DNA of 43,025 nt from the IMG/VR virus record IMGVR_UViG_3300025112_000041, positions 1 to 43,025 of that record; one strand, given 5' to 3'. This stretch comes from a virus. The translations under genes and the position numbers were made by a program. Below are positions 17,166 through 42,540 of the stretch, in pieces; position 1 is the stretch's first letter, and each line of letters starts with the position of its first letter. The notes below the pieces were generated by a model. It was not told where the DNA came from and searched no databases. It saw only the letters and a list, made by a program, of their open reading frames with translations.

Positions 17166-17319
17166 AATATTTTAGTATTTATATGTTAAAAACAAAAAAG
17201 ACGAAGAACAACCAGCGCGTTCCTCTTACGCTGCGATGCCCTTCGCCCAGTAGCAATAACAACACTAAAAACCAGTGCAGGGGTATGCCCTTACCCTATT
17301 GAAGCATATATACTAGTAA

Positions 17320-17336
17320 AGCAAGAATCGTGCCAA
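17320..17336 (-). promoter_or_regulatory. Sigma54-type promoter of the capsid operon
   Basis: Minus strand TTGGCACGATTCTTGCT: GG of the -24 element at 17334-17333 and GC of the -12 element at 17322-17321, with the exact 10-nt spacing between GG and GC. It matches the consensus TGGCACG-N4-TTGCW fully. Start of transcription expected near 17309, giving a leader of about 145 nt with a GC hairpin (GGGTA-AGGGCA-TACCC). TAGAAGAC lies 7 nt upstream (17344-17351). Confidence 0.85.
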
Positions 17337-18482: not shown

Positions 18483-18699
18483 CTTTAATGTGTGTTATGA
18501 TTTCGTCTAATTGTATAAGTTTCGCTACAAGACGCACAGTAATCTCTGGATTATCATGCTTTTGCGTAGCAAATTTTATTTCATTTAAGAGCTTTTCACG
18601 CTTCTCGTCAATAAACTCTAAAAAAATTCTTGTCTGTTGGCTATGCTGCCAACTTTCAACCTGTTGGCGCAGGAGTTCTCGGCTGCTGTTGCTGTGCAT
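18382..18699 (-). CDS. Small helical protein, 105 aa, overlapping portal and scaffold ends
   Basis: It fills the 173-nt gap between the portal stop (18656) and scaffold start (18482) and overlaps both. The central residues (about 8-75, ELLRQQVESWQHSQQTRIFL, EIKFATQKHDNPEITVRLVA) look like a real amphipathic helical protein. The last 33 residues are read from scaffold DNA and are low in complexity. No Shine-Dalgarno and no known family; possibly a connector or assembly helper. The gap would otherwise be noncoding, which is unusual here. Confidence 0.55.
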   Translation of the reverse strand: MHSNSSRELLRQQVESWQHSQQTRIFLEFIDEKREKLLNEIKFATQKHDNPEITVRLVAKLIQLDEIITHIKDADSIAEYGSRGIVDQTSQRGRANNSNTQPTRR

Positions 18700-20377
18700 T
18701 TTGTTGGCTTTGTCCTAGAATGTCTGCTACTTGCGCTTGTAGCATTTTTATCTGTTGCTCAAACGGCTGCGCTTCTTCAGTAAGCTGCCCTGTCTGCTGA
18801 TCGACAACTAGCGAGTTTACAACTTGCAACAATTGCTGTAGGAGCTGGTCTTTCTCGTTGCCTACTTGCAGCATCTTAGCGTAAGACTCACCTTCATCAG
18901 GAAACATAAGGCGCATCATGTTCTGTAAGAAGACGGGTGCAAGAGGGGTTTGCGACACAACTTGCCACGCCATCATCATCTTCTGTGACTTCTCTTGACG
19001 TTCGATAACGTCTACATCGCCAGCAGGTTTAATGTTAAATTCGTGATTAAGGAAAAGGTCAAGAGATGCGGCTGGGCGAAGTGCGCCTGCAACAACGCGA
19101 GACTGGTAGATACGCCAACACCACTCGTAGACATCCTTGAGAGCTATACTAAAGAGCGAAACTTGCGTAGACGATAGTTGCTGTGCTTCACTAGATGCTG
19201 CTTGAATCTCTGTTGCGGTCTTGCGACTATCCTTGCGGTTCATTGCCGCGTAGTTTATCTGCGACTGCTCCTGAGCATTCTGCGACATAAGTGACTGTAT
19301 TGCCGCTACCATAGATGTGTCAGGCGGTGTAAGCTGAAACTGTTTGATGTTCGCGTCGATTAACGCTCCCGGCTGAAAACGTACAGATGTTTGTACATTC
19401 GTATTGTTTGGGTCTTCGTTCTCTTTCGCAAAGTAGAAGTTTGCGGCGCGACGATGGGCAGTTACGAACGAAGACATCAGCGAGGTGATTGTCTCCTGTA
19501 CTGTGCGATCTGAGAAAGCGCGGCCTGTTGCGTTCTGTATAGCGCTGTCTTCCAGAATCATGTACGGGAATATAACATACGGGTAGTCTATCTCGTCTTG
19601 CAATGTCTCACCGTCGCGCCTGCCCAAGTACAAAGGCCGAGGCTCACGTAGCCAATCGTCACACTTTGTACAACATGACCATGCTACGAAGACTTTGTTC
19701 TCATGCTTGAACATTACCTTCTCTATTTCGTAAAGAGACTCTACATCCACGTAGTTTGCACTACTGCTGTCAGGGTTGTCGCCTAAAAGTATATCAACAA
19801 CATCTTCATTGAAGTCGTCGTTGTCAACCATGTCACGTAGCTGTAACGCTGTGAAGTAATGTCGGTGAGCAATCATCTCACACGCTTGTATATCTCGCGT
19901 GTCTGCAGGAAATCCAAAGTCTTCGTAGTTGACTGCTTCTACAGCAAAATGCCCAGACTTATCTTCGTCAAACTGCACTTCTGCAATACTGTAACCATGC
20001 AACTGCATACCGTCAATGATCTTAAACAACGGCACTTGCCAGCCGGAGTAACGTGTTTTGTCAGTGAAGTCACGCTCAAGCTCGCCTGTTGCAGTCGTTG
20101 GCTCTGTTATAGAGGTGAAGATTGCGCTGCGCCTGCTGCCGGTTATGTACGCTACATACTTAGACTGCTCGCGGCGGATGTTCGTGTCGATGATGTGCGC
20201 CGGGACAAGAAACTCGTCCTCATCAAGGTGGCCGTCCGAACGCTCCGCTTCAACATTAATGTCTAGTTTGCGCGAGTTGCGGTTTTCTGATGCTGTACTT
20301 CCTAACGTACCAATGACATCCAGCAACTCACGTATTTGCGTGGTTGCGTCCTCGTATTTTGTGAAATCCTTATCCAC
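18656..20377 (-). CDS. Portal protein, 573 aa
   Basis: A soluble protein of portal size, rich in helices, with MDKDFTKYEDATTQIRELLD at the N-terminus, a central region (YRYSGWQVPLFKIIDGMQLHGYSIAEVQF-like, residues about 105-135) typical of P22/N4-type portals, and a Gln-rich C-terminus (QSQQNAQQQQPRTPAPTG). It follows the large terminase gene (8-nt overlap) and precedes scaffold and capsid, the standard packaging order. It forms the dodecameric ring through which DNA enters and leaves and to which the tail hub attaches. Confidence 0.8.
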   Translation of the reverse strand: MDKDFTKYEDATTQIRELLDVIGTLGSTASENRNSRKLDINVEAERSDGHLDEDEFLVPAHIIDTNIRREQSKYVAYITGSRRSAIFTSITEPTTATGELERDFTDKTRYSGWQVPLFKIIDGMQLHGYSIAEVQFDEDKSGHFAVEAVNYEDFGFPADTRDIQACEMIAHRHYFTALQLRDMVDNDDFNEDVVDILLGDNPDSSSANYVDVESLYEIEKVMFKHENKVFVAWSCCTKCDDWLREPRPLYLGRRDGETLQDEIDYPYVIFPYMILEDSAIQNATGRAFSDRTVQETITSLMSSFVTAHRRAANFYFAKENEDPNNTNVQTSVRFQPGALIDANIKQFQLTPPDTSMVAAIQSLMSQNAQEQSQINYAAMNRKDSRKTATEIQAASSEAQQLSSTQVSLFSIALKDVYEWCWRIYQSRVVAGALRPAASLDLFLNHEFNIKPAGDVDVIERQEKSQKMMMAWQVVSQTPLAPVFLQNMMRLMFPDEGESYAKMLQVGNEKDQLLQQLLQVVNSLVVDQQTGQLTEEAQPFEQQIKMLQAQVADILGQSQQNAQQQQPRTPAPTG

Positions 20378-21917
20378 TTGCAGCTAATCTTTCGTTTAAT
20401 TGTTCTACTTCTTCAATAATCTCATCACTCCAGCCAGTAGATTTGAAGTACGGCTGAAAATCACGACGCAAACGAGATTCTAACGTAGGGTTGCGGTCAG
20501 GTTCTGGCTCGCTTATCTCATTTAGTTTGTACTGCACAACAAGCTCACGTGCAGCCATACGGCTAGGCAATATGCCACGGTAATCAGCGAAGGCAAGAAC
20601 AAAAGCATCAGCACGGTCAGGAGAGGCATGGCCTTTAGACTTTGCTTGACGTTTGCTTTCTAGTTGTATTTTGTTCTGCGGCGTAACTGTGTAATAACGC
20701 GATGCTAGCTGCTTGCGTAACGTAACGTCTGTGGGAATTATGATTTCGGCATTCTCTATGTGCCGCGCAATGCTGTACCACAACTCCGCACCTCTGTTAA
20801 GGTACGCCAGTTTGTTATAAGGCGCTGCTTGGTTCAGTACGTAGTTTACGTTCCAACCATCCCTGTTAAGTTGATCCAGTATGGGCTTGCCTAGTCCTCC
20901 AGCGTCACCGTATATGACGCTTTGTACATTGTCCAAGTCGTACTTATAAAAGACTTCCGCGAGTTTTTCTATGAGGATTGTTGTGTCATGGAACTTGAAT
21001 GCCTCAACACCTATAACCTTGTTTCCGTTACGTACGACAACGACTTGCTCGTCACCACCAGCAGAAAGATCAAGGCCAGCTATATTGTATGGCTCTTCAA
21101 CGTGTTCTATTTCGTACTTGTCAAGTTCTGCAATCGTCGAGAAGTTTATGACAACCTGCTCTTCCATGCCGCCAAACTCAGCCATTACCATAGAGCGATA
21201 GAGGGCGGAGTTCTCGCCGTACGTGTCGCGTATATCTGTTATATAGTCTTCGCTGAGATGTGGGCAGTCGAAAGCTGTTACGTGGTGCTGTTTCCAGATG
21301 CCGCCAACACAAGAGTTATAGAAATGTCCTGTAGGCAAGCCGGGGCTGCTTACGTCAATGCGTTTGGTGAAGCCTGTACAACGCGCAAGGGCCATAAATA
21401 TATCGTCAGGTATGGACTTTGCCTCACTAACTAGTATTGCAAACTGACCTTCTGGCACGGGCGGATGCCAACCCTCGGCACGGCCAGCTTCATCCGTCAC
21501 GAACATCTCTATCGCGGAACCATTGACAAGGTTCTCGTAGCGCCGATAGTTTTGCTTCCAAATCTGCGCCCCGAACATTTTGTTCTGCGCCGTTGTCAGT
21601 TGCTTGATGTACTTGTCCGTTTGCCGGTCTAGCTGGTTGCCAGAAGCGGACGTAACGACAGACAACGAGTTTTCATAGCGCAGTGAGAGCCATACCGCAC
21701 ATGGCGCAACGATGAAGTTATCCTTGCCAGAGCCATTGGCAGCGCGAACAACAGACTTATACGGTTTGTTTGACGTAGATGGCTTTGCGAAGTCGCGTAA
21801 TATCTCTACTTGCCAAGGATGCAATTTAACGTGGCCATCTAACAACGTATCGTCACACACAAGAAGCATCTCATGTGGATCAGCAAACTTAATTACGTTT
21901 TTCTCGTAGCTTAACAT
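20370..21917 (-). CDS. terL: Terminase large subunit (TerL), 515 aa
   Basis: ATPase plus nuclease that packages DNA through the portal. The N-terminal ATPase has a Walker A-like AANGSGKD (59-66) and ILVSEAKSI (161-169) in the Walker B position, with Glu165 as likely catalytic carboxylate. The C-terminal RNase H-like nuclease shows GLDLSAGGDE (Asp283), IYGDAGGLG (Asp338) and SPDRADAFVLA (Asp434/437), the three acidic positions expected for two-metal cleavage. Length is normal. It overlaps the putative small subunit upstream by 7 nt and the portal downstream by 8 nt. Confidence 0.92.
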   Translation of the reverse strand: MLSYEKNVIKFADPHEMLLVCDDTLLDGHVKLHPWQVEILRDFAKPSTSNKPYKSVVRAANGSGKDNFIVAPCAVWLSLRYENSLSVVTSASGNQLDRQTDKYIKQLTTAQNKMFGAQIWKQNYRRYENLVNGSAIEMFVTDEAGRAEGWHPPVPEGQFAILVSEAKSIPDDIFMALARCTGFTKRIDVSSPGLPTGHFYNSCVGGIWKQHHVTAFDCPHLSEDYITDIRDTYGENSALYRSMVMAEFGGMEEQVVINFSTIAELDKYEIEHVEEPYNIAGLDLSAGGDEQVVVVRNGNKVIGVEAFKFHDTTILIEKLAEVFYKYDLDNVQSVIYGDAGGLGKPILDQLNRDGWNVNYVLNQAAPYNKLAYLNRGAELWYSIARHIENAEIIIPTDVTLRKQLASRYYTVTPQNKIQLESKRQAKSKGHASPDRADAFVLAFADYRGILPSRMAARELVVQYKLNEISEPEPDRNPTLESRLRRDFQPYFKSTGWSDEIIEEVEQLNERLAASG

Positions 21918-22273
21918 GATAACGTAGCAGCTTGACCGTTGTTAATAACCTCTTGCGCCCGTTGCATCCGCTCCGTGAAGTCTGAGAAGTTTATACTGTG
22001 CTTCGTCTTCTCCTTATCGTACTGCAAACCAGCAAGGAACTTAGCTGCGTCATTACGCACACGCTCGTTCTCTGCATAGTTCATTAGTTCTATAAGAACG
22101 CGGACAGCGCTATCACCAAGGTCTTCCAACTTGTCGATAGCTTGGCTTGCGGAAGCAACTTCTGGTGAGACAAGATCAACAACTTCCTTATCGTAGCGTA
22201 GGTCTTCAGCGACTTCCTCATTAGAGAAGCCCATACGCTTTAACTGATATATCTGTTCGTTAGCTGCGCTCAT
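21911..22273 (-). CDS. Putative terminase small subunit, 120 aa
   Basis: A helical 120-aa protein, MSAANEQIYQLKRMGFSNEE then VAEDLRYDKEVVDL, that reads as a helix-turn-helix in the first 35 residues, then a helical oligomerisation region (residues 40-90). Position directly before TerL, with an overlap of 7 nt, is where the DNA-recognising small subunit normally lies. Motif support is limited, so this rests mainly on synteny. Confidence 0.6.
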   Translation of the reverse strand: MSAANEQIYQLKRMGFSNEEVAEDLRYDKEVVDLVSPEVASASQAIDKLEDLGDSAVRVLIELMNYAENERVRNDAAKFLAGLQYDKEKTKHSINFSDFTERMQRAQEVINNGQAATLSC

Positions 22274-25200
22274 GGCTCCGGCCCATCTCCATAATCTCTT
22301 ACAAGTCTACCACTTTCATCACGAATAAAATTACCATACTCATCCCGCGCCCACTTAAATGCTTGACCTTCTGCATCCAATTCTTCCAGGGTAACACCCA
22401 ACATTTCTCTATCAACATCAAAGTCTTTTTCTGAGAACTTAGAGTTAAAGTATTCATCTAATGATTCTTGTTTTGCATCTTTTAAACCTTCCAACTTAAT
22501 TCCCATACGATCTAGTATATCAATATTTTCCAAATCTAATCTACCTTCAATTTTATCACCAACACTCTCCTTAATAGTAAATTCCATAGCAAAATCACGA
22601 AGCATTTCTGGTAAAACATCACGCATCTTCTTCTGCGCTTCTGCGCTACGTTGTACATTATCATTATTAAGCCATGCCCTGTACAAAGCTTCCATAACAG
22701 AAATATTCGGATTCCTGTCTCTAGCAATTTTAAGTTGACGATTCAATGATTCTTTAATCTGATCTTTTGAAGCCCATGATCCCCAAACTTCAATCATTGT
22801 ATCAGAAAACTTGTCTACAAGTTTTTCCTCAATCTCTTTTGTTTTTTCGATATGTTCTTCTGGTGTTGGTACTGTTGGTAGCTTGGTTGTAAATGGCTTA
22901 TCTGGCGGTAGTACCGTTATCGGCGGTATCCAATCGACTGTCTCGTCAACGTCAGGTCTTGGGCCTTTGTAATCATCACCTTGCTCTTCTACCCACGCAT
23001 CAACCTCTTCTTTTGTCCATGTCTTGCCTGTCGGCGGTTCTGGTTCTCCTATTACGAAAGGAGTCTCACCTTTAGGTGCTTCACCCGTTGGTAATTCTAC
23101 CATTGGTAATTCTACCACAGTTGTGGGAATATCAGTTACTGGCTCACCAGTAATCGGTTCACCTTGTTGTAATGACTTCAAATAATCTTGTACTTCTGCT
23201 TCTGGTATAATTAGCCCAGCACTAAGCTCTTGTTTACCGATAGGAGTTTCTGAACCTGTATAGAAGTTTTCGCCACCCTTGTCGGGAAGATCGCTCTTTC
23301 TAACCTTTCCTTCTGTTAATGTACCTTCTCCTGTAGGTTCATAACCAGACGTAGGTATATGCTCAGGTAGTCGCCCATGTCTGCTCAGGAACGCATCCAT
23401 CGACACTTCCTGCTGTGCGTCACCAGCACCACCTTCTTCTGGATAAAGCTTTTTACGCCACCACTCTGCTGTCTGTCCGTGGAGTTTTTCAAAGCCCTCC
23501 TTCTCCTGTCCGACAAGTGATTGTAGCCTCTCTTTAATGCTTGCGTCTTTTGGAGGATTTTTGTCCATCTTATTAAGCGTGACGTTTAATAACGGTTTGA
23601 CAAAAGGACGCAAAACATTACCCGTAAATTCCGTAGCATTTTTTCTTATCCAACCAAGCTTAGTCGGATCAGCTTTGTTATACTCAGGGTGGTTATACCC
23701 AGATACGTTTATAGCGTCTTTAAGGAAATCGTTCAGTTCATTTACGGCTTGCAATCCAAGTATGGGCGGAAACTCAGCTGCAAGAAGAAGTGCAGGAAGT
23801 TGTATATCGCCATAGCCTTGTCTATCAAGCTCTTTAAAATCTAACGTTAGTACGTTTATAAGTGCTTGTGCATAACCTTTTATAGATAACCCAAACTCAT
23901 CACCCTCTGTAACAGAGCCTCGCCCACCCTTTCTTTCGGTAAAGCGTGTTAACTCGTCAACTACTCCATTAAGGATTTTACCAGAAGCAGACAACACACC
24001 ACCTACAGTTTCTCCAGCACTTCTGAGAAAGCCCTTTATCTTTCCAAGACCTGTTGTAACATTAGCAACTACGCCGGGATGTTTATAAAAAAGAAAGTTT
24101 CCTTCTGCATCTTCTGGAAATGGCCCGTAGATACCAGTTTGAGCTAAACCTGCACCTTCTTGAGATTCTCCAGATGCAGGGTCTTCACCTTTCCATTCAA
24201 AAGCGGGGCCAAAACCTCTGTGAACATCTGTCCAAAACGCTTCAGCGTCCTGCATCATTTCGTCTGTGCGGTCTTCTTGTAAGTCCATGTAATGTTCTTG
24301 CACATCATCGAAAAGGTTGTCTACATCAATTTCAAGTATCTCTGGTGTTATGTCAACATACGAAGGTGTACGTCGGCGATAAGGTTCTTCTGGCTTTGCT
24401 ATTTCTATACCACCTAAAACGTCTTCTGGTATCGTAGGGAAGTTTGCACCGAAGTAGTATTTAGATTCCGCAGGTTTTCCTAACCGTTGCCAAAGAACTT
24501 CTGGGCCGGTAAATACGTCTGCACCGCCCAGAAGTTCTTGCCGCACATCTGCATAACCTTGTGGGCCGCTGATATTAAAAGCATCTCCACTGCCTTGCAA
24601 ATACTTATTTGCCATATTAGATGTAGTAGATACTAGCGGCCTCGAAGTGACTAACCCTTGTGCAGGTTTTTTGTAAGCAAAAGGAGCCCAAGGAAAGTCA
24701 CTCAGTGGTGGATCGCTTACAGCTTCTTCTTCAGATGTGCTAAAAATTTCTTCACCAGCGATGTCATTTATAAAACCTTTTATTGCTATTTCTTCTGGGT
24801 CGATCAACTCGCCTGTTACGGTACTTACTGGTGGGTCTTCCGAGGAAGGTTGGTCGGCAACACTCTCTGGGTCTAAGATATTAACTCCCAACAGATCACC
24901 CGCTGTCGTTGTAATTACGCCAGCCGCAGGTGATGGTTGTGATGTTAGTTGTTCTTGCTTTGCTTCCTGTATTTTTTGCTTTGCTTCCTCTGCCTGCTGA
25001 GCAGCTAGCTTTTCTGCTTTTTCTACGCGAAGGCGTTCTTCTTCCTTCTCTTCAGCAATACGAATACGCTCTGCCTTTTCTTCTGCTTCAGCCTCTCGTT
25101 TACGTTTCTCTGCTTCTGCAGCTTGTTGGTCGGCTATCTTTTGTAGCCGACGAGCTTCTTCCTCTGCTTCGCGTTTAGCATTTGCCTCCGTTATTTTACG

Positions 25201-27015
25201 CGCAGCCTCTTGCGCCTCCGCAGCTTTGCGAGCATCTTCCTCCGCTTTTTCTTTTGCTATGCGAGCCTCTTCTTGTTTTTGCCGTGCAGCTTCAGCAGCT
25301 TCTTGTTGTCGTTTTTCTTCTGCTCGCTGAGCTGCTTCTACACGTAAACGCTCTTCCTCTGCATCTTGGTTAGCAATGTATTGTCCTTGGCGAGCTTTTT
25401 CACGTGCGTGGTAATCTGCGATAGCTTTTTCTTGTTTGGCTCGCGCAGCAGCTTCAGCCCTTTCAGTATCTTCTCTTTGCTTTGCAACTTGTGTTTTTGC
25501 CCATGCGTCCTGCTTTGCTGTCAACGCATCCTGCTCCGCTTGCCAAGCCGCGTCTTGTTCTGCTTGCCAAGCCGCTAGTTTATCAGCTTCAGCCTTTTGC
25601 CTAGCTTGCTCTGCGGCTTGTTCTGTGGCTAGTCTGTCAGCGTCAGCCTTCTGCTGTTTTGCATTTTCAGCTTCTTGTTCTTGTATAGCCTCGACATTAA
25701 GCTGCGTAAGCGTTTGCTGTAAAATTGGATCGTAAGCAGACCACTTTTGCCCCCAAGGACTTTCAATCGTTTCTGTTTCGTGACTAATAATATTACCAAA
25801 CGCATCTCTGGATATGTTTTCAGAAAATGATGGCCCTTGTGCATGTAAGTATTGAGCTACATTAGGTTTTGTAACCAGACGACCTTCACCGGGATTGCGT
25901 AACTCAGCGTCAGCACCTTCTCCACTTACAGTGTAATTTCTGCCTAGAGCTTCATCAGGCTGCGTATAACCAGCAGGGGCTACACCAGCTTCGTTAAGAT
26001 TTTTTGCAAGAGTTTCTAGCCCTTGTTTACCGTAGCCACTCAATTCCGTAAGTGCAGTTATGTAAGCTCCCACGTCAAAAGATGTCGGCGCTGCAGAAGT
26101 AGCGGTAGTTGGTGTTACACCGTATTTTGTATATTCGTTTGCAGCATAGTTTGGATCAAGCCATTCAGGAGAAATACGCCTACCACCAGCACTAACTTTA
26201 CCAGAAGCTAGATTCATTGGAAAAGGAATAGGTTCACCAGCAGCATAGGGGCCACGTGCGCTTTCTGCTGTAAGCCATAAAACGTTATTTAGTTCTTCTG
26301 TTGATATATGTGAAAGATCTGGAATGGCGCTTTTTGGTGCTTGTTGATAACGATAACCTTTTAACCAAAGATCGGGCGCTTCTGGTAAAGATTTCCATTC
26401 GTCAGTAATACGCCCTGGGCTGCCGGGTGTTATTACTCTGTACTCTTCCATAGGCGCTGCTGGCGTTGCTTCAGGAAAAACATCAGTACCTATCGTAGAC
26501 CCTGTAATATCTAGTGCTGAAATCGGAGAGCTGCTTGTTGTAATTGTTGGCGTTTCGGTGTTACTTGCTTGCTGCGCAGCTTGTCGAGCAACTTCTGCAT
26601 CATACGCTACTGTTCCTTTTTGTAGTGGCTGTGACTTTAGTTCAGTTGTAGGACGCCATTGATCGCTACCGAAACCACTACCAAAGCCACTACCACTGTA
26701 GCTTGTTTGCACAGGCGGCTTAGGTGTTAGTACGTTAGTAAGCGCAGGCCACATTGCTTCGTAACTAGCACGTTTGCCTGCCATGTTCGGCGCTTGTTGC
26801 GCGTAACGAACATCTGACTCAGTTAGCGGAAACCATTGCCTTTGATTTGCGGTAGGTTCCCAGCTTGTAGCTCGAAAGCCTTTATCTCCAAGAGATTGAA
26901 AATTTGCGTCTGGAAATTGCTGACCTAGCTCCGCCGTTAGCGCTTCATAGCCACCCGCTGCGGGAAGCTTTGTAAGCGCTTCTATAAAAGCATCAACCGT
27001 ATATGGCTCTGGCAT
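22270..27015 (-). CDS. Very large protein with long Ala/Glu/Lys/Gln coiled coil, 1581 aa
   Basis: First large gene of the operon driven by the 27,137 promoter. Residues 1-430 are mixed and contain Pro/Thr-rich linkers. Residues about 435-690 form an extended coiled coil rich in EEARRKAEE-like heptads. The rest includes an amphipathic segment (GFLRSAGETVGGVLSASGKI) and several Pro/Glu-rich stretches. No enzyme motif was found. Its ATG follows directly on the stop of a 34-aa ORF (TAG ATG). Size suggests a virion or internal protein, but position ahead of terminase is unusual for ejection proteins, which lie at the other end here. Function unknown. Confidence 0.7.
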   Translation of the reverse strand: MPEPYTVDAFIEALTKLPAAGGYEALTAELGQQFPDANFQSLGDKGFRATSWEPTANQRQWFPLTESDVRYAQQAPNMAGKRASYEAMWPALTNVLTPKPPVQTSYSGSGFGSGFGSDQWRPTTELKSQPLQKGTVAYDAEVARQAAQQASNTETPTITTSSSPISALDITGSTIGTDVFPEATPAAPMEEYRVITPGSPGRITDEWKSLPEAPDLWLKGYRYQQAPKSAIPDLSHISTEELNNVLWLTAESARGPYAAGEPIPFPMNLASGKVSAGGRRISPEWLDPNYAANEYTKYGVTPTTATSAAPTSFDVGAYITALTELSGYGKQGLETLAKNLNEAGVAPAGYTQPDEALGRNYTVSGEGADAELRNPGEGRLVTKPNVAQYLHAQGPSFSENISRDAFGNIISHETETIESPWGQKWSAYDPILQQTLTQLNVEAIQEQEAENAKQQKADADRLATEQAAEQARQKAEADKLAAWQAEQDAAWQAEQDALTAKQDAWAKTQVAKQREDTERAEAAARAKQEKAIADYHAREKARQGQYIANQDAEEERLRVEAAQRAEEKRQQEAAEAARQKQEEARIAKEKAEEDARKAAEAQEAARKITEANAKREAEEEARRLQKIADQQAAEAEKRKREAEAEEKAERIRIAEEKEEERLRVEKAEKLAAQQAEEAKQKIQEAKQEQLTSQPSPAAGVITTTAGDLLGVNILDPESVADQPSSEDPPVSTVTGELIDPEEIAIKGFINDIAGEEIFSTSEEEAVSDPPLSDFPWAPFAYKKPAQGLVTSRPLVSTTSNMANKYLQGSGDAFNISGPQGYADVRQELLGGADVFTGPEVLWQRLGKPAESKYYFGANFPTIPEDVLGGIEIAKPEEPYRRRTPSYVDITPEILEIDVDNLFDDVQEHYMDLQEDRTDEMMQDAEAFWTDVHRGFGPAFEWKGEDPASGESQEGAGLAQTGIYGPFPEDAEGNFLFYKHPGVVANVTTGLGKIKGFLRSAGETVGGVLSASGKILNGVVDELTRFTERKGGRGSVTEGDEFGLSIKGYAQALINVLTLDFKELDRQGYGDIQLPALLLAAEFPPILGLQAVNELNDFLKDAINVSGYNHPEYNKADPTKLGWIRKNATEFTGNVLRPFVKPLLNVTLNKMDKNPPKDASIKERLQSLVGQEKEGFEKLHGQTAEWWRKKLYPEEGGAGDAQQEVSMDAFLSRHGRLPEHIPTSGYEPTGEGTLTEGKVRKSDLPDKGGENFYTGSETPIGKQELSAGLIIPEAEVQDYLKSLQQGEPITGEPVTDIPTTVVELPMVELPTGEAPKGETPFVIGEPEPPTGKTWTKEEVDAWVEEQGDDYKGPRPDVDETVDWIPPITVLPPDKPFTTKLPTVPTPEEHIEKTKEIEEKLVDKFSDTMIEVWGSWASKDQIKESLNRQLKIARDRNPNISVMEALYRAWLNNDNVQRSAEAQKKMRDVLPEMLRDFAMEFTIKESVGDKIEGRLDLENIDILDRMGIKLEGLKDAKQESLDEYFNSKFSEKDFDVDREMLGVTLEELDAEGQAFKWARDEYGNFIRDESGRLVRDYGDGPEP

Positions 27016-27135: not shown

Positions 27136-27152
27136 AGCAAGAATCGTGCCAA
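27136..27152 (-). promoter_or_regulatory. Sigma54-type promoter of the 1581-aa/terminase/portal/scaffold operon
   Basis: Minus strand TTGGCACGATTCTTGCT, identical over 17 nt to the capsid promoter. -24 GG at 27150-27149, -12 GC at 27138-27137. TAGAAGAC lies 7 nt upstream (27160-27167), as at the capsid promoter, and TATATAGTAAGATG follows. Expected start near 27125. Between this box and the terminator at 27339 no gene is visible; the gap holds a small CGGGG-TCATA-CCCCG hairpin (27276-27290). Confidence 0.88.
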
Positions 27153-27338: not shown

Positions 27339-27367
27339 AAAAAAGCCCAGCGCATGAAACGCTGGAC
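27339..27367 (-). terminator. Rho-independent terminator of the two-gene minus operon
   Basis: On the minus strand GTCCAGCG-TTTCATG-CGCTGGGC (27367-27345), an 8-bp stem with one G-T pair, is followed by TTTTTT (27344-27339). It lies 22 nt after the stop of the 90-aa gene and separates that operon from the late sigma54 operon. Confidence 0.85.
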
Positions 27368-27388
27368 CTGATAAGATCGAGCGGTGGG

Positions 27389-33070: not shown

Positions 33071-33441
33071 CAAATAAAACAACAATAAAGGAGGACTTAG
33101 CGTGGCTGATGGATAACAGTCTAAAGCAACGGTTTAGCGATAGCAGTCTTGCGAGATCGCGTAAGCCAAGCGCCTATAATAGCGAGAGTTGCCCTCAGAT
33201 AGCGTTGCTTGCCCCTCGCACACACGCGGCACAGCCATATAATGAGCGCGAAGTTATCCTCACGAACGAGCCTGCATACGTTACAGTTAAGCTGAGTGAA
33301 GGTTGGGAAGCTATGCTAAAGACACACTACGATGAGCGCATACTGCTTGACAAGGGGCCGGTGCATAGGTACAATGGCTGGGTGCGTAAGATAGTCGAAC
33401 CTATCTACGCTGCTGTTCGCAGACAACGAAGGAAATACTAA
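33067..33441 (+). CDS. Hypothetical early protein, 124 aa
   Basis: Start at 33067 overlaps the previous stop (ATGA), preferred over 33052. MTNKTTIKEDLAWLMDNSLK, a Ser/Arg-rich middle, and a C-terminus (GWEAMLKTHYDERILLDKGP then VRRQRRKY) that is basic. The 3' part contains a consensus-like sigma70 promoter for the activator gene that follows with a TAATG overlap. Function unknown. Confidence 0.6.
   Translation: MTNKTTIKEDLAWLMDNSLKQRFSDSSLARSRKPSAYNSESCPQIALLAPRTHAAQPYNEREVILTNEPAYVTVKLSEGWEAMLKTHYDERILLDKGPVHRYNGWVRKIVEPIYAAVRRQRRKY
33347..33375 (+). promoter_or_regulatory. Sigma70 promoter ahead of the sigma54-activator gene
   Basis: TTGACA (33347-33352), exactly 17 nt, TACAAT (33370-33375): 11 of 12 consensus bases. 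It lies inside the previous coding region, about 66 nt before the activator ATG, so the activator can be made from its own early transcript. Confidence 0.7.
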
Positions 33442-34175
33442 TGGCTACCAGCACAGAAGTTAATAGGCTTAACAAACGCCTAGCTGCCTACCGTACCATC
33501 GACGACTACATGAAGCAGTTGTTAAAGAACACTATCACGTTGTCGTTTCGTAGTGAACCCGTGCTTATCACAGGCGCTACCGGCACAGGTAAGGAGATAA
33601 TAGCTAGCCTGCTGCACGGCACGCAGCTAAAAGATATAGTTACCGTAAACACAACAGCCGTAACAAACACGCTCTTCGAGTCTGAGCTATTCGGCCACAT
33701 AAAGGGTAGCTTCACAGGTGCGATTCGTGACCGCAAAGGCTTGGTAGATGTCGCTAAGAACGGTACGCTATTCCTAGATGAGGTAGGTGATATGCCGCTA
33801 GACTTACAAGCTAAGATACTACGCCTCGTACAGTTCGGAACGTACCGTCCTATAGGAGATAACGTAACGCGCAACACAAACTGCCGTATCGTAGCAGCAA
33901 CCTGCAAACCTATAAACAAACTCATCGCAGAAGGTAAGTTCCGTGACGATTTATACTACCGTCTGGCAGCGTTCCGCCTACACATCACTCCGCTATCAGA
34001 ACGTCGCCACGATGCGAAGCATTTTCTTGTAACACATCCGCTCTGGCATAAGATACCAAGCGATCATAAAGAAAAGTTCCTAACGTACGTTAACAACGAC
34101 CCTATGAACGGCAATTACCGTGAGCTAGAACAACTAATGTTACGATATGAAGTTCTAGAACAACTACCCGGCTGA
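33441..34175 (+). CDS. Stand-alone sigma54-dependent transcription activator (NtrC-type AAA+ domain), 244 aa
   Basis: Remodels sigma54-RNA polymerase by ATP hydrolysis to open -24/-12 promoters. Key elements are in canonical order: Walker A GATGTGKE (45-52), ESELFGH (80-86), the sigma54-contact loop GSFTGA (89-94, consensus GAFTGA), Walker B TLFLDE (109-114), sensor I AATC (152-155, usually AATN), arginine fingers R168 and R174 in GKFRDDLYYRL, and sensor II GNYREL (224-229). It has neither the N-terminal receiver/GAF domain nor the C-terminal Fis-type helix-turn-helix; the chain ends 15 residues after sensor II. It is thus likely constitutive and may work from solution or with another DNA-binding protein. 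It ends the early operon and is followed within 45 nt by a sigma54-type promoter. Confidence 0.93.
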   Translation: MATSTEVNRLNKRLAAYRTIDDYMKQLLKNTITLSFRSEPVLITGATGTGKEIIASLLHGTQLKDIVTVNTTAVTNTLFESELFGHIKGSFTGAIRDRKGLVDVAKNGTLFLDEVGDMPLDLQAKILRLVQFGTYRPIGDNVTRNTNCRIVAATCKPINKLIAEGKFRDDLYYRLAAFRLHITPLSERRHDAKHFLVTHPLWHKIPSDHKEKFLTYVNNDPMNGNYRELEQLMLRYEVLEQLPG

Positions 34176-34216: not shown

Positions 34217-34233
34217 CTGGCACGATTCCTGCT
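34217..34233 (+). promoter_or_regulatory. Sigma54-type promoter of the 135-aa gene / replication module
   Basis: CTGGCACGATTCCTGCT: -24 GG at 34219-34220, -12 GC at 34231-34232, correct spacing, one deviation (C for T at the first T of TTGC). CAAAAGAT, related to TAGAAGAC, lies 7 nt upstream (34202-34209). TTATATAAGATG follows, as at 27,137. Expected start about 34244; a GCCCC-AATC-GGGG hairpin (34250-34262) begins the leader. Confidence 0.83.
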
Positions 34234-34303: not shown

Positions 34304-34711
34304 ATGGCACAATACACAGAACAAGAGTACAAGGACGGTGACTGGAAGGGATTCAAGTTTACCGTGAAGCAGTTCGATAGCACAGCGGAAGCCGTTGATT
34401 CTATCGGAGAAGACAACATCCTATCGTTAGTGAATCAGCAGTTCGCTAGCCGCATTCGCGCTAAGGTAAAGAACTCTTTACCGAAGGGCTTGAGCGGTGA
34501 AGATCTGACTGCATCACAGCAACGCCTGACAGATAAGCACGTCGATGGTTTGCTATTCTCGCAGGAGGATGTCGATAAGTGGCGACCTGACCAGCGTGAG
34601 CTTACGCCTACTGCGCTATTCAAGATGGCGAAGGAAGCGTTCAAGGCTAACGATAACGTCAAGGGCGCTGAGTTGCTAACCAAGATGCAAGAGCTTTTAG
34701 AAGCTGCATAG
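34304..34711 (+). CDS. Hypothetical, probably abundant protein, 135 aa
   Basis: Between a sigma54-type promoter and a strong terminator, so transcribed largely as a single-gene message, in the same arrangement as the capsid gene. MAQYTEQEYKDGDWKGFKFT, a charged alpha/beta start, followed by helices (ASRIRAKVKNSLPKGLSGED; TALFKMAKEAFKANDNVKGA). Soluble. Not a recognisable SSB, scaffold or kinase. The leader CCTAACATAACATAATA lacks Shine-Dalgarno and resembles that of the DUF669-like gene at 38204. Strong regulation suggests need in large amounts for replication or gene control; function unknown. Confidence 0.7.
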   Translation: MAQYTEQEYKDGDWKGFKFTVKQFDSTAEAVDSIGEDNILSLVNQQFASRIRAKVKNSLPKGLSGEDLTASQQRLTDKHVDGLLFSQEDVDKWRPDQRELTPTALFKMAKEAFKANDNVKGAELLTKMQELLEAA

Positions 34712-34786: not shown

Positions 34787-35359
34787 ATGACAGATGACAT
34801 TGACATCGTAGTAGGTAAGTTAAAACGTTCAGAAGTTACGGCCAAGCCTAAAGCAAACCGTAGCAGCTATAATAAGAACAGCGCAGAGATGATACGGCCC
34901 ATCATAGACAAACTCTTAGACGAAACAAAAGATGTGTTTGTGCCGTGCGCCGACACAGGCTACAGCGCTGGTACGTTATACGTTAAGCTGAATGACGGAC
35001 TACTATGGCTCATGCACAACGACAAGAGCGAACGTAACACAGACTACCGCTACTTGCGTACACAAATATCCATGCGTAAGCTAACTGAAGGTGTTCTTAT
35101 ATACTTCAAGGAAGCGATACGTACCGTGCGGCAGAAGACGTTAGACGGGCGCACGTTAAAAGTTGCCACAAGTGATAGCATAAAGTGGCGGCACGACATA
35201 CTCACATGGCTACAGTCTGCACAAGACGGTGAGCTATTCTCACGTGAGGATATAGGTATAACAGAAGCAGATAAGCAATGGGTACATGATACGATAGCTA
35301 CCCAAGCACCTGACGCAGAAGTTATTTTCTCAGACACAGGACTTCGTATGATACGTTAA
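34787..35359 (+). CDS. Hypothetical protein, 190 aa, first of the replication block
   Basis: A mixed alpha/beta soluble protein, MTDDIDIVVGKLKRSEVTAK with a basic early region (KPKANRSSYNKNS), then VPCADTGYSAGTLYVKLNDG and a helical RTQISMRKLTEGVLIYFKEA. The basic charge and position before nuclease, recombinase and polymerase genes suggest DNA metabolism, but no motif identifies it. Confidence 0.65.
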   Translation: MTDDIDIVVGKLKRSEVTAKPKANRSSYNKNSAEMIRPIIDKLLDETKDVFVPCADTGYSAGTLYVKLNDGLLWLMHNDKSERNTDYRYLRTQISMRKLTEGVLIYFKEAIRTVRQKTLDGRTLKVATSDSIKWRHDILTWLQSAQDGELFSREDIGITEADKQWVHDTIATQAPDAEVIFSDTGLRMIR

Positions 35360-35360
35360 C

Positions 35361-35444
35361 ATGGAAGCAGATTCAATCGGCCCCTTGCTATACATAGGGG
35401 CATTTATAATATTCTACTTACGATACACTAGACAACGACGGTGA
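35361..35444 (+). CDS. 27-aa membrane peptide
   Basis: MEADSIGPLLYIGAFIIFYL then RYTRQRR: one hydrophobic helix and a basic end. It starts 1 nt after the previous stop and its stop overlaps the GTG of the next gene, filling an otherwise empty gap. Tiny and unassigned. Confidence 0.45.
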   Translation: MEADSIGPLLYIGAFIIFYLRYTRQRR

Positions 35445-35713
35445 CAATAGAAGAACTACTTAACTGCGATGTTACATCGCTAGAGGCTATGGCAGACGAT
35501 GAGTTGTTGGAACATTTCAAACCATATCTTATCGTCTGCCAGCCACCGTTAGACGACAACGTGAAGGTAGTTAAAGGGCCAAAACGTAAACGTAAGACAT
35601 CCATATCAGTTAGAGAGAAGCGTACGTTAGAAGAGCAGATGCACGAGCTAGCTGACCTGCATAACGTAGAACTAGATGAAGGCGCAGATTTATTACCACC
35701 AAACTTAAAATGA
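35441..35713 (+). CDS. Hypothetical acidic protein, 90 aa
   Basis: GTG start overlapping the previous stop (GTGA). MTIEELLNCDVTSLEAMADD, then a basic patch (KGPKRKRKTSISVREKRTLE) and an acidic end. Overlaps the nuclease gene by 4 nt. May assist the nuclease; no family recognised. Confidence 0.6.
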   Translation: MTIEELLNCDVTSLEAMADDELLEHFKPYLIVCQPPLDDNVKVVKGPKRKRKTSISVREKRTLEEQMHELADLHNVELDEGADLLPPNLK

Positions 35714-36642
35714 CTACAACCTTGCACAAAACAAATGACGGTCGTTACATAATTAAGATAGACGCATCGCTCTACAATCAGAGCGCCTGTCCACGGCGCT
35801 TGTGGTACATGGGCGGCAGAGGTTTAACTTATGATACGAAGTCACACAAAATGGAGTACGGCACAGCGTTTCACAAGGCGCTGCAAGAATACTACACAAC
35901 GGGCAATACTAAGAAAGCTCTTGCCGTAGCTATCGAACATTACGAACAGCCAGACATCTACGTACCAGACAATGACTTCCGTGACATAGGACATCTGGCT
36001 GCTACGTTACAGCAGTATTTCATGGCGTACGAAAAGCTGGACGGCTTCAAGCCAGACATGGGCGAAGAAGGCCCATTGTTAGAACAACGCTTTGCTATAC
36101 CATACGACACAGATGGTGAGCGTATTGACGTTGTGTTGTGCGGTACGATAGACATGATAGGTAGATTCAACGGCATGCCTGTGCTAGTAGATCACAAGAC
36201 TACAGCACTCATGCAAGTCGAGAAGTATCTTGAAGGCTACCAAAACTCTCCACAGATGATGATGTACACTATGATATACAAGCACTTGTTTCCTGACGAA
36301 AGCAGAGGCGTAGTTATCAACGGCATCTTCATATCACGTAGCGGCAAGAGCAAGTTTCGACGCTCAACAATCATTACGTTCCCCGATCATGTGCTAACAG
36401 AGTTCGAGAATCACTTGCGAGAGACAGCACAGTTCTTCATGAGCGGCTTGCGGCGTGTGTTAGATGAGGGCGCTTACGCAGAAGATGTCTTCCTACCTAA
36501 CTTCACTTGCTGCCAGACAAAGTTTGGCGAGTGTAACTTCTCGCCTGTATGCACCACGCCACGTGCAGATGATCGTGAGATTATCATAGGCTCGCTCTTC
36601 TCCACAACGAACACCTACGATCCACTAAACTTTCAAAAATGA
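35710..36642 (+). CDS. PD-(D/E)XK nuclease with Cas4/AddB-like Fe-S cysteines, 310 aa
   Basis: RecB-family exonuclease. Signature: YNQSACPRRLW (Cys27), GTAFH (His55), GTIDM (Asp148), VDHKTT (Asp161, Lys163), and the QxxxY motif PQMMMYTMIY (Gln182, Tyr186). Cys267/268, Cys275 and Cys281 together with Cys27 fit the iron-sulfur staple of Cas4 and AddB, which holds the N- and C-terminal parts together. Lies upstream of the Sak4-like ATPase; in phages these act together in recombination and DNA end processing. Length is normal; all catalytic residues are visible. Confidence 0.87.
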   Translation: MTTTLHKTNDGRYIIKIDASLYNQSACPRRLWYMGGRGLTYDTKSHKMEYGTAFHKALQEYYTTGNTKKALAVAIEHYEQPDIYVPDNDFRDIGHLAATLQQYFMAYEKLDGFKPDMGEEGPLLEQRFAIPYDTDGERIDVVLCGTIDMIGRFNGMPVLVDHKTTALMQVEKYLEGYQNSPQMMMYTMIYKHLFPDESRGVVINGIFISRSGKSKFRRSTIITFPDHVLTEFENHLRETAQFFMSGLRRVLDEGAYAEDVFLPNFTCCQTKFGECNFSPVCTTPRADDREIIIGSLFSTTNTYDPLNFQK

Positions 36643-36905
36643 CAGACCAAGAGATACGCGACGCAGCTTTACGTGAGTTTAAAATACTTGCACCGCGCAA
36701 GTTCAACGCTGGCATAGCAGAACACAATCCTGATGGTACAAAAGGAATGTGGCTTATGACTTCAGAGCAACTTGTAGATAGCGCGGAGGAAGAAGTAATA
36801 GATCTTTGGCACTACATACAGGTGCTTAAAGCAAAAATAAAAGAGCAAGACGCTCTCATACTACAACTAAAACGAACGATAGCAAACAAGAACAATGAAA
36901 GATGA
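36639..36905 (+). CDS. Hypothetical helical protein, 88 aa
   Basis: MTDQEIRDAALREFKILAPR, then KGMWLMTSEQLVDSAEEEVI and a C-terminal coiled coil (LKAKIKEQDALILQLKRTIA). The EE-x2-DLWxYI helix resembles those of MazG-type proteins, but the rest does not fit, so no enzymatic call is made. ATGA-coupled to the nuclease. Confidence 0.6.
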   Translation: MTDQEIRDAALREFKILAPRKFNAGIAEHNPDGTKGMWLMTSEQLVDSAEEEVIDLWHYIQVLKAKIKEQDALILQLKRTIANKNNER

Positions 36906-37119
36906 ACAAGTATTAGCAATAGTAGATGCTATAAAAGATATAGGATACACTCTAAGCCACACGCTTGGGGATAGTGAAACAGGAAAGAATAACGGTAACG
37001 TAGGTAACATTATGTTTTCTATGGATAGGATGAGTGACAACATAGCGGAAATAAATGAACGCCTAAAAGTCCTCGATGACTCTGTTATTGCCGTAGCACA
37101 AACCATACACGACAAATGA
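36895..37119 (+). CDS. Hypothetical protein, 74 aa
   Basis: MKDEQVLAIVDAIKDIGYTL, then helical, coiled-coil-like sequence (MDRMSDNIAEINERLKVLDD). Overlaps the previous gene by 11 nt and the following by 4 nt. Small soluble accessory of the recombination operon; no function inferred. Confidence 0.55.
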   Translation: MKDEQVLAIVDAIKDIGYTLSHTLGDSETGKNNGNVGNIMFSMDRMSDNIAEINERLKVLDDSVIAVAQTIHDK

Positions 37120-37769
37120 GCAAAGCAATAATAGGTATCGTAGGTGGTAGCGGCACGGGTAAGTCCACGTCGCTACGCAACCTACCACCAGAGAAAACAT
37201 ACATAATAGATCTTGAGCGTAAGGGTATGCCCTTTCCCAAGAAGTTCCCCTACATAGCATCCTGCTCATACACTACAGAGTTCGATGCTGCGCTGAAGAC
37301 TGCCCTAGCAGACGAAAGCTGCGAGGTTATAGTTATTGAGTCGTTCACGAAGTACGTTGAGATACTTCACACACTAGCAGATAAGTCTTTCAAAGGCTTT
37401 GATATATGGAACTACTACAATAAGGAGATTCGTACTATGCTAGACAAGGTTAAGAACGATCATGCTGTTGTGATATTCACAGCAATTGATGAGATAGTGG
37501 AGCTAGTACAGCCCAGCGGTAGCACGTCTAACGTGCGCCGCATTAAGGTGCAAGGCAAGCAACACGCAGGTTGCGTAGAGAAAGAGTTCCTTATGGTACT
37601 GTTCACAGAAGTCAGGCGCGACAAAGATGGTAACACACGCTACGTCTTCCAGACTAACAGCGACGGTATCACCTCCGCTAAGACTCCGATGGGTATGTTT
37701 GATGAAGCATACATAGACAACGACATTAACGCAGTCATAGAGGCTGCAAAAAACTATTACGACAAATGA
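37116..37769 (+). CDS. Sak4-like RecA-fold recombinase ATPase, 217 aa
   Basis: P-loop GGSGTGKS (10-17), a Walker B-like VIVIES (71-76) and a RecA-core fold ending in a beta strand VFQTNSDGITSAKTPMGMFD. Single-domain RecA-like proteins of this length with an AAA_24-type core (Sak4) anneal or exchange strands in phage recombination. The neighbouring DUF669-like protein (38204) and the upstream Cas4-like nuclease are its usual companions. No AAA+ sigma54 loop is present, so it is distinct from the activator. Confidence 0.8.
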   Translation: MSKAIIGIVGGSGTGKSTSLRNLPPEKTYIIDLERKGMPFPKKFPYIASCSYTTEFDAALKTALADESCEVIVIESFTKYVEILHTLADKSFKGFDIWNYYNKEIRTMLDKVKNDHAVVIFTAIDEIVELVQPSGSTSNVRRIKVQGKQHAGCVEKEFLMVLFTEVRRDKDGNTRYVFQTNSDGITSAKTPMGMFDEAYIDNDINAVIEAAKNYYDK

Positions 37770-37954
37770 AATGGCCAACAGACGGACTATACATTGACGA
37801 ACTGATCGACAAGCTGTTGAAGAAGTTCAAAAAACCACGTAGCGGATACCAAGATAATATGAAATCTAAGCTGCTAAAGCTAAAGCAAGCATCAGCAGAC
37901 GCTAACATAACAACAATCGATGACTTAACAGACTACTTACATGAGCGATACTAA
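37766..37954 (+). CDS. Hypothetical protein, 62 aa
   Basis: MKWPTDGLYIDELIDKLLKK, then basic (FKKPRSGYQDNMKSKLLKLK) and a helical end. Coupled to the Sak4-like gene by ATGA and overlapping the next gene by 14 nt. Small, basic, soluble; perhaps nucleic-acid binding. Confidence 0.55.
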   Translation: MKWPTDGLYIDELIDKLLKKFKKPRSGYQDNMKSKLLKLKQASADANITTIDDLTDYLHERY

Positions 37955-38183
37955 AATGAATGATACTCAAAAAGAGTACGCAGAGATGACTGTATCATTA
38001 GCAGAAGCCGCTAATATGCAGATTAAGAACATAGCAACAAAGCTAAAGATCAAATATTCTGATGCAGCTAGGTTGTTTCAAATTGTAACTGAAGACAAGT
38101 TAGTATATATGCTAACTCAAATGACTTCTCCTGATGGCAATAGGAGTGCGGCCCCAGAAGAATCCAAACAAGACACTCCCTAA
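37941..38183 (+). CDS. Hypothetical protein, 80 aa
   Basis: MSDTKMNDTQKEYAEMTVSL, then AEAANMQIKNIATKLKIKYS. It reads as helices with a helix-turn-helix-like stretch (residues 21-45), but confidence in the fold is low. It precedes the DUF669-like gene within the recombination operon. Confidence 0.55.
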   Translation: MSDTKMNDTQKEYAEMTVSLAEAANMQIKNIATKLKIKYSDAARLFQIVTEDKLVYMLTQMTSPDGNRSAAPEESKQDTP

Positions 38184-38203
38184 CATAAACATAAATACAT
38201 AAT

Positions 38204-38686
38204 ATGGCAATCATCAACTTAGATGAGATCGCAGATAGCGTAAGACCCTATCTGAAGAAGGACACGTATGCGGCAAGAATACTTAGTGCCGAGTTTACGC
38301 AAAGCAAGGCCGGTGCGCCTATGATAGTAATGCAGTGGGAGGTAGTAGCTCCTGAAGCAGTTGAAGACAACGACGGCAAGCTCATACGAATTGCAGGTTT
38401 GCAGTTCCGTGACTATCTGTCGTTTAGCGAGAAGGCTATGGATATAACCATGCGCCGTATCAAGGGTTTGCACAAGGCGTTAGAACTCCCTCCAGAGTTC
38501 GACGACGAAGACCCTGACGTAGACCAGTACAGTGGCCTAGCTGCTGACGTTACGATAGAGACTGAGCAGCAAGCACAGAAAACAGAGGATGGCTCGCCTG
38601 TCCTCAATGGTGACGGCGATCCTGTCATGAACAATAACTACCGTTTGAAGCGAGTGTTGCGGTTGAACGAAGAGCATACGTTATAG
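38204..38686 (+). CDS. DUF669-like single-strand-binding partner of Sak4, 160 aa
   Basis: MAIINLDEIADSVRPYLKKD, then a beta-rich OB-like half (TYAARILSAEFTQSKAGAPM, IVMQWEVVAPE) and an acidic tail with LDEDP-like stretches and RLKRVLRLNEEHTL. Proteins of the DUF669 family are usually found beside Sak4 ATPases and polymerases and are believed to bind ssDNA. The leader CCTAACATAAACATAAATAC has no Shine-Dalgarno. Length fits. Call rests on context plus fold pattern. Confidence 0.7.
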   Translation: MAIINLDEIADSVRPYLKKDTYAARILSAEFTQSKAGAPMIVMQWEVVAPEAVEDNDGKLIRIAGLQFRDYLSFSEKAMDITMRRIKGLHKALELPPEFDDEDPDVDQYSGLAADVTIETEQQAQKTEDGSPVLNGDGDPVMNNNYRLKRVLRLNEEHTL

Positions 38687-38711
38687 TCAGAACGCTTCTA
38701 GACTATATGTG

Positions 38712-38793
38712 GAACGTAGTGGTACACAGCGGCTATTAAGATGCTGCGGGAGTCTGTTAGGTATTTCACTCCTCATTGATCGCCACTACGTTC
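38712..38793 (+). ncRNA. Structured RNA element in the leader of the polymerase gene
   Basis: GAACGTAGTGG (38712-38722) pairs with CCACTACGTTC (38783-38793); inside are two smaller stems (CAGC 38727/GCTG 38743 and GGAGT 38749/ACTCC 38768), so a three-way junction is possible. It lies in the only sizeable gap of the operon, before polA. Could be a regulatory leader, small RNA or processing site. Confidence 0.5.
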
Positions 38794-38808
38794 TCTTTGA
38801 ATTTTTAG

Positions 38809-38885
38809 CTAGGCTAGGTAAACTGTTTCTATTGGTTTGTGGTTTTTTATGCGGTTGGTTGTCCGTGACTAGCCTAGTGTTTTTT
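38809..38885 (+). terminator. Terminator-like inverted repeat before the polymerase gene
   Basis: CTAGGCTAG (38809-38817) and CTAGCCTAG (38869-38877), 51-nt loop, then TGTTTTTT (38878-38885). It could attenuate the message into polA; the long loop makes a strong terminator less likely. Confidence 0.45.
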
Positions 38886-38892
38886 AAAGGAG

Positions 38893-41289: not shown

Positions 41290-41292
41290 ACA

Positions 41293-42540
41293 ATGATAAA
41301 CATAGAAAAATGGCGAGGATATTTAAAAGATTTAGAGTCACCCAACCTGTTCATAGATTGGGGCTTTTACAGCATGATAGCGACAGCACTACAACGCCGC
41401 GTTTGGTTATACCCTGACACGTTCACGTTATACCCTAACCTGTTCGCGCTACTGGTCGGCCCACCGGCAGCAGGTAAGTCGCGTGTCATAGCGCAGGTGA
41501 GTGAGTTCGTTAAGCACCCGTCGCTCATCAAGCGTGTGCCGAAGAAGAAGTCTAACGAGGTAGACATCAAGCCGTTCTACCCTATCAGCGCGGATACGAT
41601 AACACAGGAAGGTCTTGTGCGGTTCATCGTTGAAGAGTGTGCGCGTGACTTCTTCTACAAGAACGGCGAGAACAAGAAGATCCGCTCTTCGCACTTCTCC
41701 GTGGGGTTTATGATAGAAGAGCTGGGCGTTTTGCTACGCAAGAACACAGACAACATTGTCAATATGCTGAACCAGTTTTACGATAGTCGTGACTACACGT
41801 ACAAGACAAAGCACCACGGCACAGACATTATCAAGAACGTATGCGTTAACATACTGGGCGGCGCAACGCCCTCTTTCATACGCACGGCGTTCAGTGATAA
41901 GATCATATCGCAAGGCTTTACGTCACGTGTCATTATGATATTCGGTGACGGCCCTCGCTTCTTACGGCAGTTCCCCGGCATAGACGATAAGCAGAAAGCT
42001 CTGAAGAAAGACCTTGTAGGACATTTGAAAAAGTTGTGTGATGTAGCTGGGCCGGTGAAGTTTACAGACGAAGCAGAAGCATACCATAAAGAAGTCTACG
42101 AGAGCGGCCAGCTAACACAAGATGTTGTCAACAAAGATTACAGGCTTGAGACTTACTACGGCAGGAAGAACGTACACCTGCTAAAGTTGTCTATGATAAT
42201 GCACTTCGCAGATACCATAGACAGCATGATTATAGAGAAGTCTACAGTCGAGCGAGCCATGCGGTTCCTTGCACATACGGAAGCGCGGATGCACGAAGCC
42301 TACGTTACTGCTGGGCGCAATGTACTTGCCGAGATTCAACGACGCATACTACAGCACATCATAAACGAAGGGGCCGTCGTAACATACAAGAAACTTTTGC
42401 TCACGTTCTGCGATGACCTCGCAAAAGACGAACTTGAACAATGTCTAGCTTTTCTACTTGCAACTGACCAGATTAAGAAAAGTGCAGGTGGATATGTAGC
42501 ACTCGTAGACAAACCTGCGGATGCGTTTAGTTACCTATAA
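41293..42540 (+). CDS. DUF3987-like replicative helicase ATPase, 415 aa
   Basis: P-loop GPPAAGKS (56-63), Walker B-like VGFMIEEL (137-144), and a sensor region LGGATPSFIRTA followed by GFTSRVIMIFGDGPR, the order seen in phage-plasmid helicases of the YfjI/DUF3987 type, which unwind DNA at the fork. It follows the polymerase by 3 nt and replaces DnaB-type helicase here. There is no primase domain N-terminal to it; the first 50 residues are helical. Confidence 0.8.
   Translation: MINIEKWRGYLKDLESPNLFIDWGFYSMIATALQRRVWLYPDTFTLYPNLFALLVGPPAAGKSRVIAQVSEFVKHPSLIKRVPKKKSNEVDIKPFYPISADTITQEGLVRFIVEECARDFFYKNGENKKIRSSHFSVGFMIEELGVLLRKNTDNIVNMLNQFYDSRDYTYKTKHHGTDIIKNVCVNILGGATPSFIRTAFSDKIISQGFTSRVIMIFGDGPRFLRQFPGIDDKQKALKKDLVGHLKKLCDVAGPVKFTDEAEAYHKEVYESGQLTQDVVNKDYRLETYYGRKNVHLLKLSMIMHFADTIDSMIIEKSTVERAMRFLAHTEARMHEAYVTAGRNVLAEIQRRILQHIINEGAVVTYKKLLLTFCDDLAKDELEQCLAFLLATDQIKKSAGGYVALVDKPADAFSYL

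Follow-up and report, generated by a model that had tools for sequence, protein, structure and literature searches.

The known phage late switches work through phage polymerases, sigma factors, antiterminators and sigma-70 co-activators. With T4 gp45/gp55, Ogr/Delta, Mor/C and lambda Q, a phage-made factor steers the host polymerase to later genes; to our knowledge, none of these involves sigma-54 or an AAA+ ATPase activator. Among the bacterial activators of sigma-54 (bEBPs), PspF, NtrC1 and FleQ carry an HTH domain, to which NtrC1 and FleQ add a regulatory domain, both being absent from the phage activator described here. Helicobacter pylori FlgR is an enhancer-independent bEBP, cellular and equipped with an N-terminal receiver domain. 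In the laboratory, sigma-54 promoters in Salmonella respond without enhancers to DctD250, an engineered protein reduced to its AAA+ domain (PMC3844500). In nature, FleT of Rhodobacter sphaeroides has been singled out as the sole bEBP known to lack both outer domains (PMC7175178), and it acts in a complex with FleQ (PMC7277832). The window, i.e. the whole stretch of 43,025 nt of viral DNA analysed here, encodes a protein of comparable economy. Like DctD250, a fragment of Sinorhizobium DctD, it consists of the AAA+ domain alone, the regulatory and DNA-binding domains being absent; DctD250 is man-made, whereas the phage protein is natural, is linked to its own promoters and has a predicted activity. 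DctD250 acts enhancer-free on many sigma-54 promoters, and we propose the same for the phage activator. FleT is likewise a natural bEBP without regulatory and DNA-binding domains, but it is a cellular flagellar regulator, complexed with FleQ, and not a phage gene. The AAA+ domains of PspF, NtrC1 and FleQ have their fold, Walker motifs and GAFTGA-type loop in common with the phage activator. Among open-licence papers, no phage using sigma-54 with its own activator was found; the nearest mentions were, for Pectobacterium phage Q19, a weak HHpred match to a 'sigma-54 factor' and, for vB_Eco_slurp01, a 'sigma-54 modulation protein'. The sigma-54 machinery is known; what appears to be new is that a phage employs it to switch genes.

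We propose, with a probability of about 0.88, that this AAA+-only activator and the host sigma-54 polymerase together fire three promoters of the window, termed A, T and C (Table 1). The process would begin with the early plus-strand operon, read by the host sigma-70 polymerase and yielding the activator, which would accumulate and form a ring. Lacking a DNA-binding domain, the activator would act from solution once abundant, spending ATP, without an enhancer, on the opening of host RNA polymerase-sigma-54 that would already be parked, inactive, at A, T and C. Opening at A would start transcription of ORF135 and the replication cassette at ~34244(+); opening at T, that of the large ORF, terminase, portal and scaffold at 27125(-); and opening at C, that of the capsid candidate at 17309(-). 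The closed complexes would constitute a tight off-state, with the timing set by the build-up of activator. Since sigma-54 promoters and an activator gene are found in one virus, the lineage appears to switch its replication, packaging and capsid genes via host sigma-54. Host activators could fire A, T and C as well, and readthrough from 27125 into the capsid-candidate gene could occur.

Table 1. Features of the window that bear on the proposed switch, in order of position
Feature	Positions	Strand	Basis and context
Major capsid protein candidate, 487 aa	15702..17165	-	Synteny only
Hairpin 2, GCGA-AGGGCA-TCGC	17233..17246	-	Capsid leader
Hairpin 1, GGGTA-AGGGCA-TACCC	17281..17296	-	Capsid leader
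Sigma-54 promoter C, TTGGCACGATTCTTGCT	17320..17336	-	Predicted start 17309; 5' of the capsid-candidate gene; position conserved
Scaffold candidate, 377 aa	17349..18482	-	Position and acidic N-terminal half
Portal protein	18656..20377	-	SU10_portal E=3e-6, just below the Pfam cut-off; gene order
Terminase large subunit	20370..21917	-	phrog_2, E=2e-26
1581-aa ORF	22270..27015	-	First gene past promoter T
Sigma-54 promoter T, TTGGCACGATTCTTGCT	27136..27152	-	Predicted start 27125; 5' of the 1581-aa ORF heading the terminase/portal operon
Intrinsic-terminator-like hairpin	27343..27369	-	Separates the upstream minus-strand genes from promoter T
Candidate sigma-70-like promoter, TTGACA-17-TACAAT	33347..33375	+	Upstream of the activator gene
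Sigma-54 activator, 244 aa, AAA+ only	33441..34175	+	PF00158 E=1.1e-52, sequence, AlphaFold2 and PDB matches
Sigma-54 promoter A, CTGGCACGATTCCTGCT	34217..34233	+	Predicted start 34244; immediately follows the activator gene and precedes ORF135 with the replication cassette
ORF135	34304..34711	+	First gene past promoter A; conserved, no function assigned
Replication cassette	34787..42540	+	PD-(D/E)XK nuclease, Sak4-like annealing protein, SSB-like protein, DNA polymerase A, primase/helicase

The class of the three sites follows from the comparison with the published sigma-54 (RpoN) -24/-12 consensus, TGGCAC-N5-TTGCT (PMC12316311), of which both minus-strand copies are perfect examples and promoter A one with a single difference in the -12 element. 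The GG and GC elements stand at the fixed spacing of sigma-54 promoters, and the sites share the other attributes expected of such promoters, being intergenic, directed at a gene and kept in relatives. By sequence, all three are sigma-54 (-24/-12) promoters and not sigma-70 promoters. The two copies of TTGGCACGATTCTTGCT, at 17320-17336 and 27136-27152, are 17/17 identical; the sequence and the ORF positions confirm the preliminary description in placing both on the minus strand and outside genes, the first flanked by ORFs 15702-17165(-) and 17349-18482(-), the second by ORFs 22270-27015(-) and 27389-27661(-). The third copy, CTGGCACGATTCCTGCT at 34217-34233(+), has 2 mismatches to TTGGCACGATTCTTGCT and is also intergenic. 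The reference point for the predicted starts was the C within the -12 GC; for promoter C it is position 17321, and the geometry leads to exactly the start at 17,309 named earlier. The same description had offered selection, beside recent duplication, as the reason for the identity of these promoter copies; selection is well supported by the conserved position of the sites in relatives whose flanks vary. It had also given the capsid gene a start of its own, which the conserved upstream site in relatives supports well for the capsid candidate; that its dosage is thereby uncoupled from the terminase/portal message is plausible. What it had missed was the sigma-54 class, the activator gene, the third promoter and the capsid-leader hairpins.

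On the plus strand, an early-looking block comprising a helicase and small genes ends with the activator gene, and promoter A follows 41 nt further on. The minus strand carries, in order, the terminator-like hairpin, promoter T, the 1581-aa ORF, terminase, portal, the scaffold-like gene, promoter C and the capsid candidate. Terminase, portal, small ORF, scaffold and major head protein follow one another as in Escherichia phage SU10 (Kuravirus), but the SU10 capsid has no detectable similarity to the capsid candidate of the window. When the window was examined for SU10-like genes, the adaptor matched above the cut-off, the portal fell below it and the capsid gave no match; on the evidence here, the phage would not be placed in the SU10 lineage. 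The capsid candidate found no match in PHROGs, among PDB sequences or in a profile comparison with the phiM5 and SU10 capsids, and its AF2 model (pLDDT 38) gave no identity from structure, so that synteny alone makes the 487-aa protein a candidate capsid. The source is a virulent-looking tailed phage. Shine-Dalgarno-like words before ATG are slightly above background in the window and its relatives, with gene starts crudely assigned; this weak signal perhaps points to the kind of host.

The activator contains the bEBP core, namely a PF00158 AAA+ domain with Walker A (GATGTGKE) and Walker B (TLFLDE) motifs, a GAFTGA-type loop (GSFTGA) and an arginine-finger region; its sequence also includes FRDDLYYRL. 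Its AlphaFold2 model (pLDDT 89) matches NtrC1, FleQ, FlrC, ZraR and PspF in Foldseek. The AAA+ match begins at residue 22, and the N-terminal regulatory domain that is usual, if not universal, in bEBPs is absent; in a second group of relatives, whose ~50-kb genomes have the same plan and a homologous capsid candidate, the activators carry up to about 80 unassigned N-terminal residues. At the other end, all 52 activator proteins stop 50-82 aa past the Pfam match, which leaves room for the lid and is too short for a further HTH domain. No HTH family is among the 25 families listed for 20 activator members, and the C-terminal HTH domain, again usual but not universal in bEBPs, is missing from the activator. 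Phage-encoded sigma-54 (PF04552) was found in 0/15 genomes; the sigma factor must therefore come from the host. The candidate sigma-70-like promoter upstream of the activator gene is nearly intact in the closest relatives and barely above background in the wider set; as a conserved element across relatives, a sigma-70 promoter in this place is at most weakly enriched and was set aside.

Since FleT works with FleQ, the main rival to this reading is a partner protein: the activator might join a host bEBP or a phage protein with a DNA-binding domain in a mixed ring, the promoters remaining sigma-54 promoters. FleT, itself devoid of regulatory and DNA-binding domains, provides the precedent, and TAGAAGAC is present 7 nt upstream of both minus-strand promoters, at 17344-17351(-) and 27160-27167(-). 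However, the 10 nt upstream of the site contain no conserved motif in 34 relatives, and DctD250 demonstrates that an AAA+ domain alone suffices; we consider a mixed ring unlikely.

The reading of the sites as sigma-54 promoters of the phage is corroborated by the relatives, which were gathered via the activator, the terminase and the capsid candidate. They are metagenomic contigs and partly redundant, and nominal P-values consequently overstate their independence. The place of promoter A is occupied in 16/16 genomes examined, that of promoter T, upstream of the terminase operon, in 13/14 relatives, and that of promoter C in 10/16 genomes, with all losses within one clade. A site scoring at least 11/13 lies within 400 nt upstream of the capsid candidate in 48/61 loci, against 66/2200 control windows (3%), giving a nominal binomial P of 4e-61 for partly redundant loci; four other capsid-candidate loci, beyond the clade without promoter C, score only 10/13. 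An unsupervised word scan recovered TGGC-N8-TGCT in 35/38 non-redundant capsid leaders, the best word in shuffled leaders reaching 5. Across IMG/VR, the pattern TTGGCAYGATTCYTGCT occurs in at least 119 stretches, against 4 for the reversed control.

The activator and the sites also travel together. PF00158 was detected in 28/33 and 26/34 records, and the activator gene is present in every capsid-lineage record that reaches 36 kb. This association bears on the possibility that the activator mainly targets the host sigma-54 regulon, the phage promoters being left to host activators that respond to nitrogen or stress state. An AAA+-only activator should indeed be promiscuous on host promoters (PMC3844500). 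Nevertheless, the activator gene adjoins a phage promoter, with a site at most 700 nt downstream, in 44/52 activator loci, and long relatives carry activator and sites together, which makes such a takeover of the host regulon improbable as the main function. Some viral contigs display clusters of sigma-54-like sites with no activator detected: an 82-kb contig without PF00158 (L148, G033) bears at its end (78021-81639) fourteen sites forming seven divergent pairs, mostly 42 nt apart, a 42.8-kb contig (L174/L244, G045) has 10 clustered sites, and G034, G040, G041 and G050 are similar. G045 and the latter four are perhaps phages that rely on host activators.

Returning to the sites as sigma-54 promoters of the phage, their nature is further defined by their distribution and sequence. 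The capsid-upstream sites of 34 relatives carry their information mainly at the positions of the sigma-54 signature. A promoter scan rates 27152-27124 as a 9/12 match to an ordinary sigma-70 promoter, with TTGGCA as the -35 box; a -10 box (TATAAT, 16-18 nt from the -35) is, however, correctly placed in 3/34 relatives, as in the slid controls (1-3), and the conserved block is that of -24/-12, so that we give the sigma-70 reading very little credence. The fetched genomes contain 40 intergenic sites scoring at least 12/13 and 3 coding ones, and the density of good sites is about 78-fold higher in intergenic DNA than within genes. Being intergenic and repeated, the sites might serve another phage or host protein in packaging, recombination or repression, but sites scoring at least 12/13 aim at a gene within 300 nt in 34 cases and the wrong way in 1, and this bias, the sigma-54 consensus with its spacing and the presence of the activator in the same genomes render that explanation equally hard to sustain. 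Weakest of all is the recent duplication of a regulatory unit suggested in the preliminary description, or a chance repeat: the 17/17 identity of the two copies speaks for it, but in the 120 nt on each side of the core the three sites agree at only 23-30% of positions, which is the chance level and means that the 17/17 identity is no remnant of recent duplication, 3 matches with at most 3 mismatches were observed against 0.09 expected from dinucleotide shuffles, and equivalent sites are kept independently in relatives, which leaves this explanation practically no weight.

A second level of control may lie in the capsid leader. An unsupervised scan found AAGGGCAT in 35/38 non-redundant capsid leaders. 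It forms the loop, together with its closing pair, of small hairpins, of which a leader usually has two; these tandem hairpins carry the invariant AAGGGCAU. Across 30 distinct hairpins, variation is seen in 4/5 stem pairs, double changes number 76 and 96% of cells are paired, and the closing A-U is invariant; the 30 were chosen among hairpins with at least 3 pairs, which biases the pairing count upward. The outer stem pairs, which lie outside this selection, covary too. The covariation score is 1.09, compared with 0.17 when shuffled and at most 0.21 when slid. When the whole 144-nt leader is folded for minimum energy, the hairpins do not appear as drawn, and they consequently rest on covariation and not on energy. 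Within the genomes searched, the hairpins are found in capsid leaders and almost nowhere else, and the clade without promoter C keeps them. No Rfam family scored above its gathering threshold for the capsid leader. The hairpins are probably a new RNA element; as a guess, they might bind a protein or an RNA and so control how the capsid message is translated, processed or kept stable. It seems rather more probable than otherwise that this uncultured lineage, with about 60 loci found, combines a self-sufficient, enhancer-free activator acting on host sigma-54 with a second capsid control via the AAGGGCAU hairpins.

No isolated phage relative of the lineage was found: INPHARED gave 0 matches for capsid candidates from two groups, and the best terminase matches in the isolate search reached ~31% identity. 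Activator matches remained below 60% identity; many carried the annotation of a bacterial regulator, and many came from records without annotation. In MT121960, whose activator is 34% similar, no site reaches 11/13. In a scan of genome contigs, the sole match was a phage contig in an archaeal MAG. This lineage contig (L297, JACTVG010000014.1), which has a capsid-upstream sigma-54 site, is binned in the MAG of a Methanoregulaceae archaeon, and the same assembly contains an activator gene on a 23.6-kb contig; the lineage contig is probably mis-binned.

The phage appears to supply only the ATPase that opens a host sigma-54 polymerase known for its strict silence before activation. If this is true, one small protein would explain the timing of the switch, infection would depend on host rpoN, and a natural minimal sigma-54 activator would become available to biochemistry. 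The activator gene and the -24/-12 sites would likewise form a genome signature by which such phages could be spotted in metagenomes. The capsid-leader hairpins would be a further, RNA-based control element that can be tested. Two more sequence features were noted: the window as a whole holds 8 copies of TAGAAGAY, against 2.6 expected, and a GC-rich hairpin, GGCCCCAATCGGGGGC, at 34248-34266(+), just past the predicted start of promoter A, is kept in close relatives. Finally, the activator is matched by phrog_7998 (E=6e-36), a PHROGs family of unknown function, so that PHROGs may already contain further sigma-54 activators of phage origin that lack an annotation.
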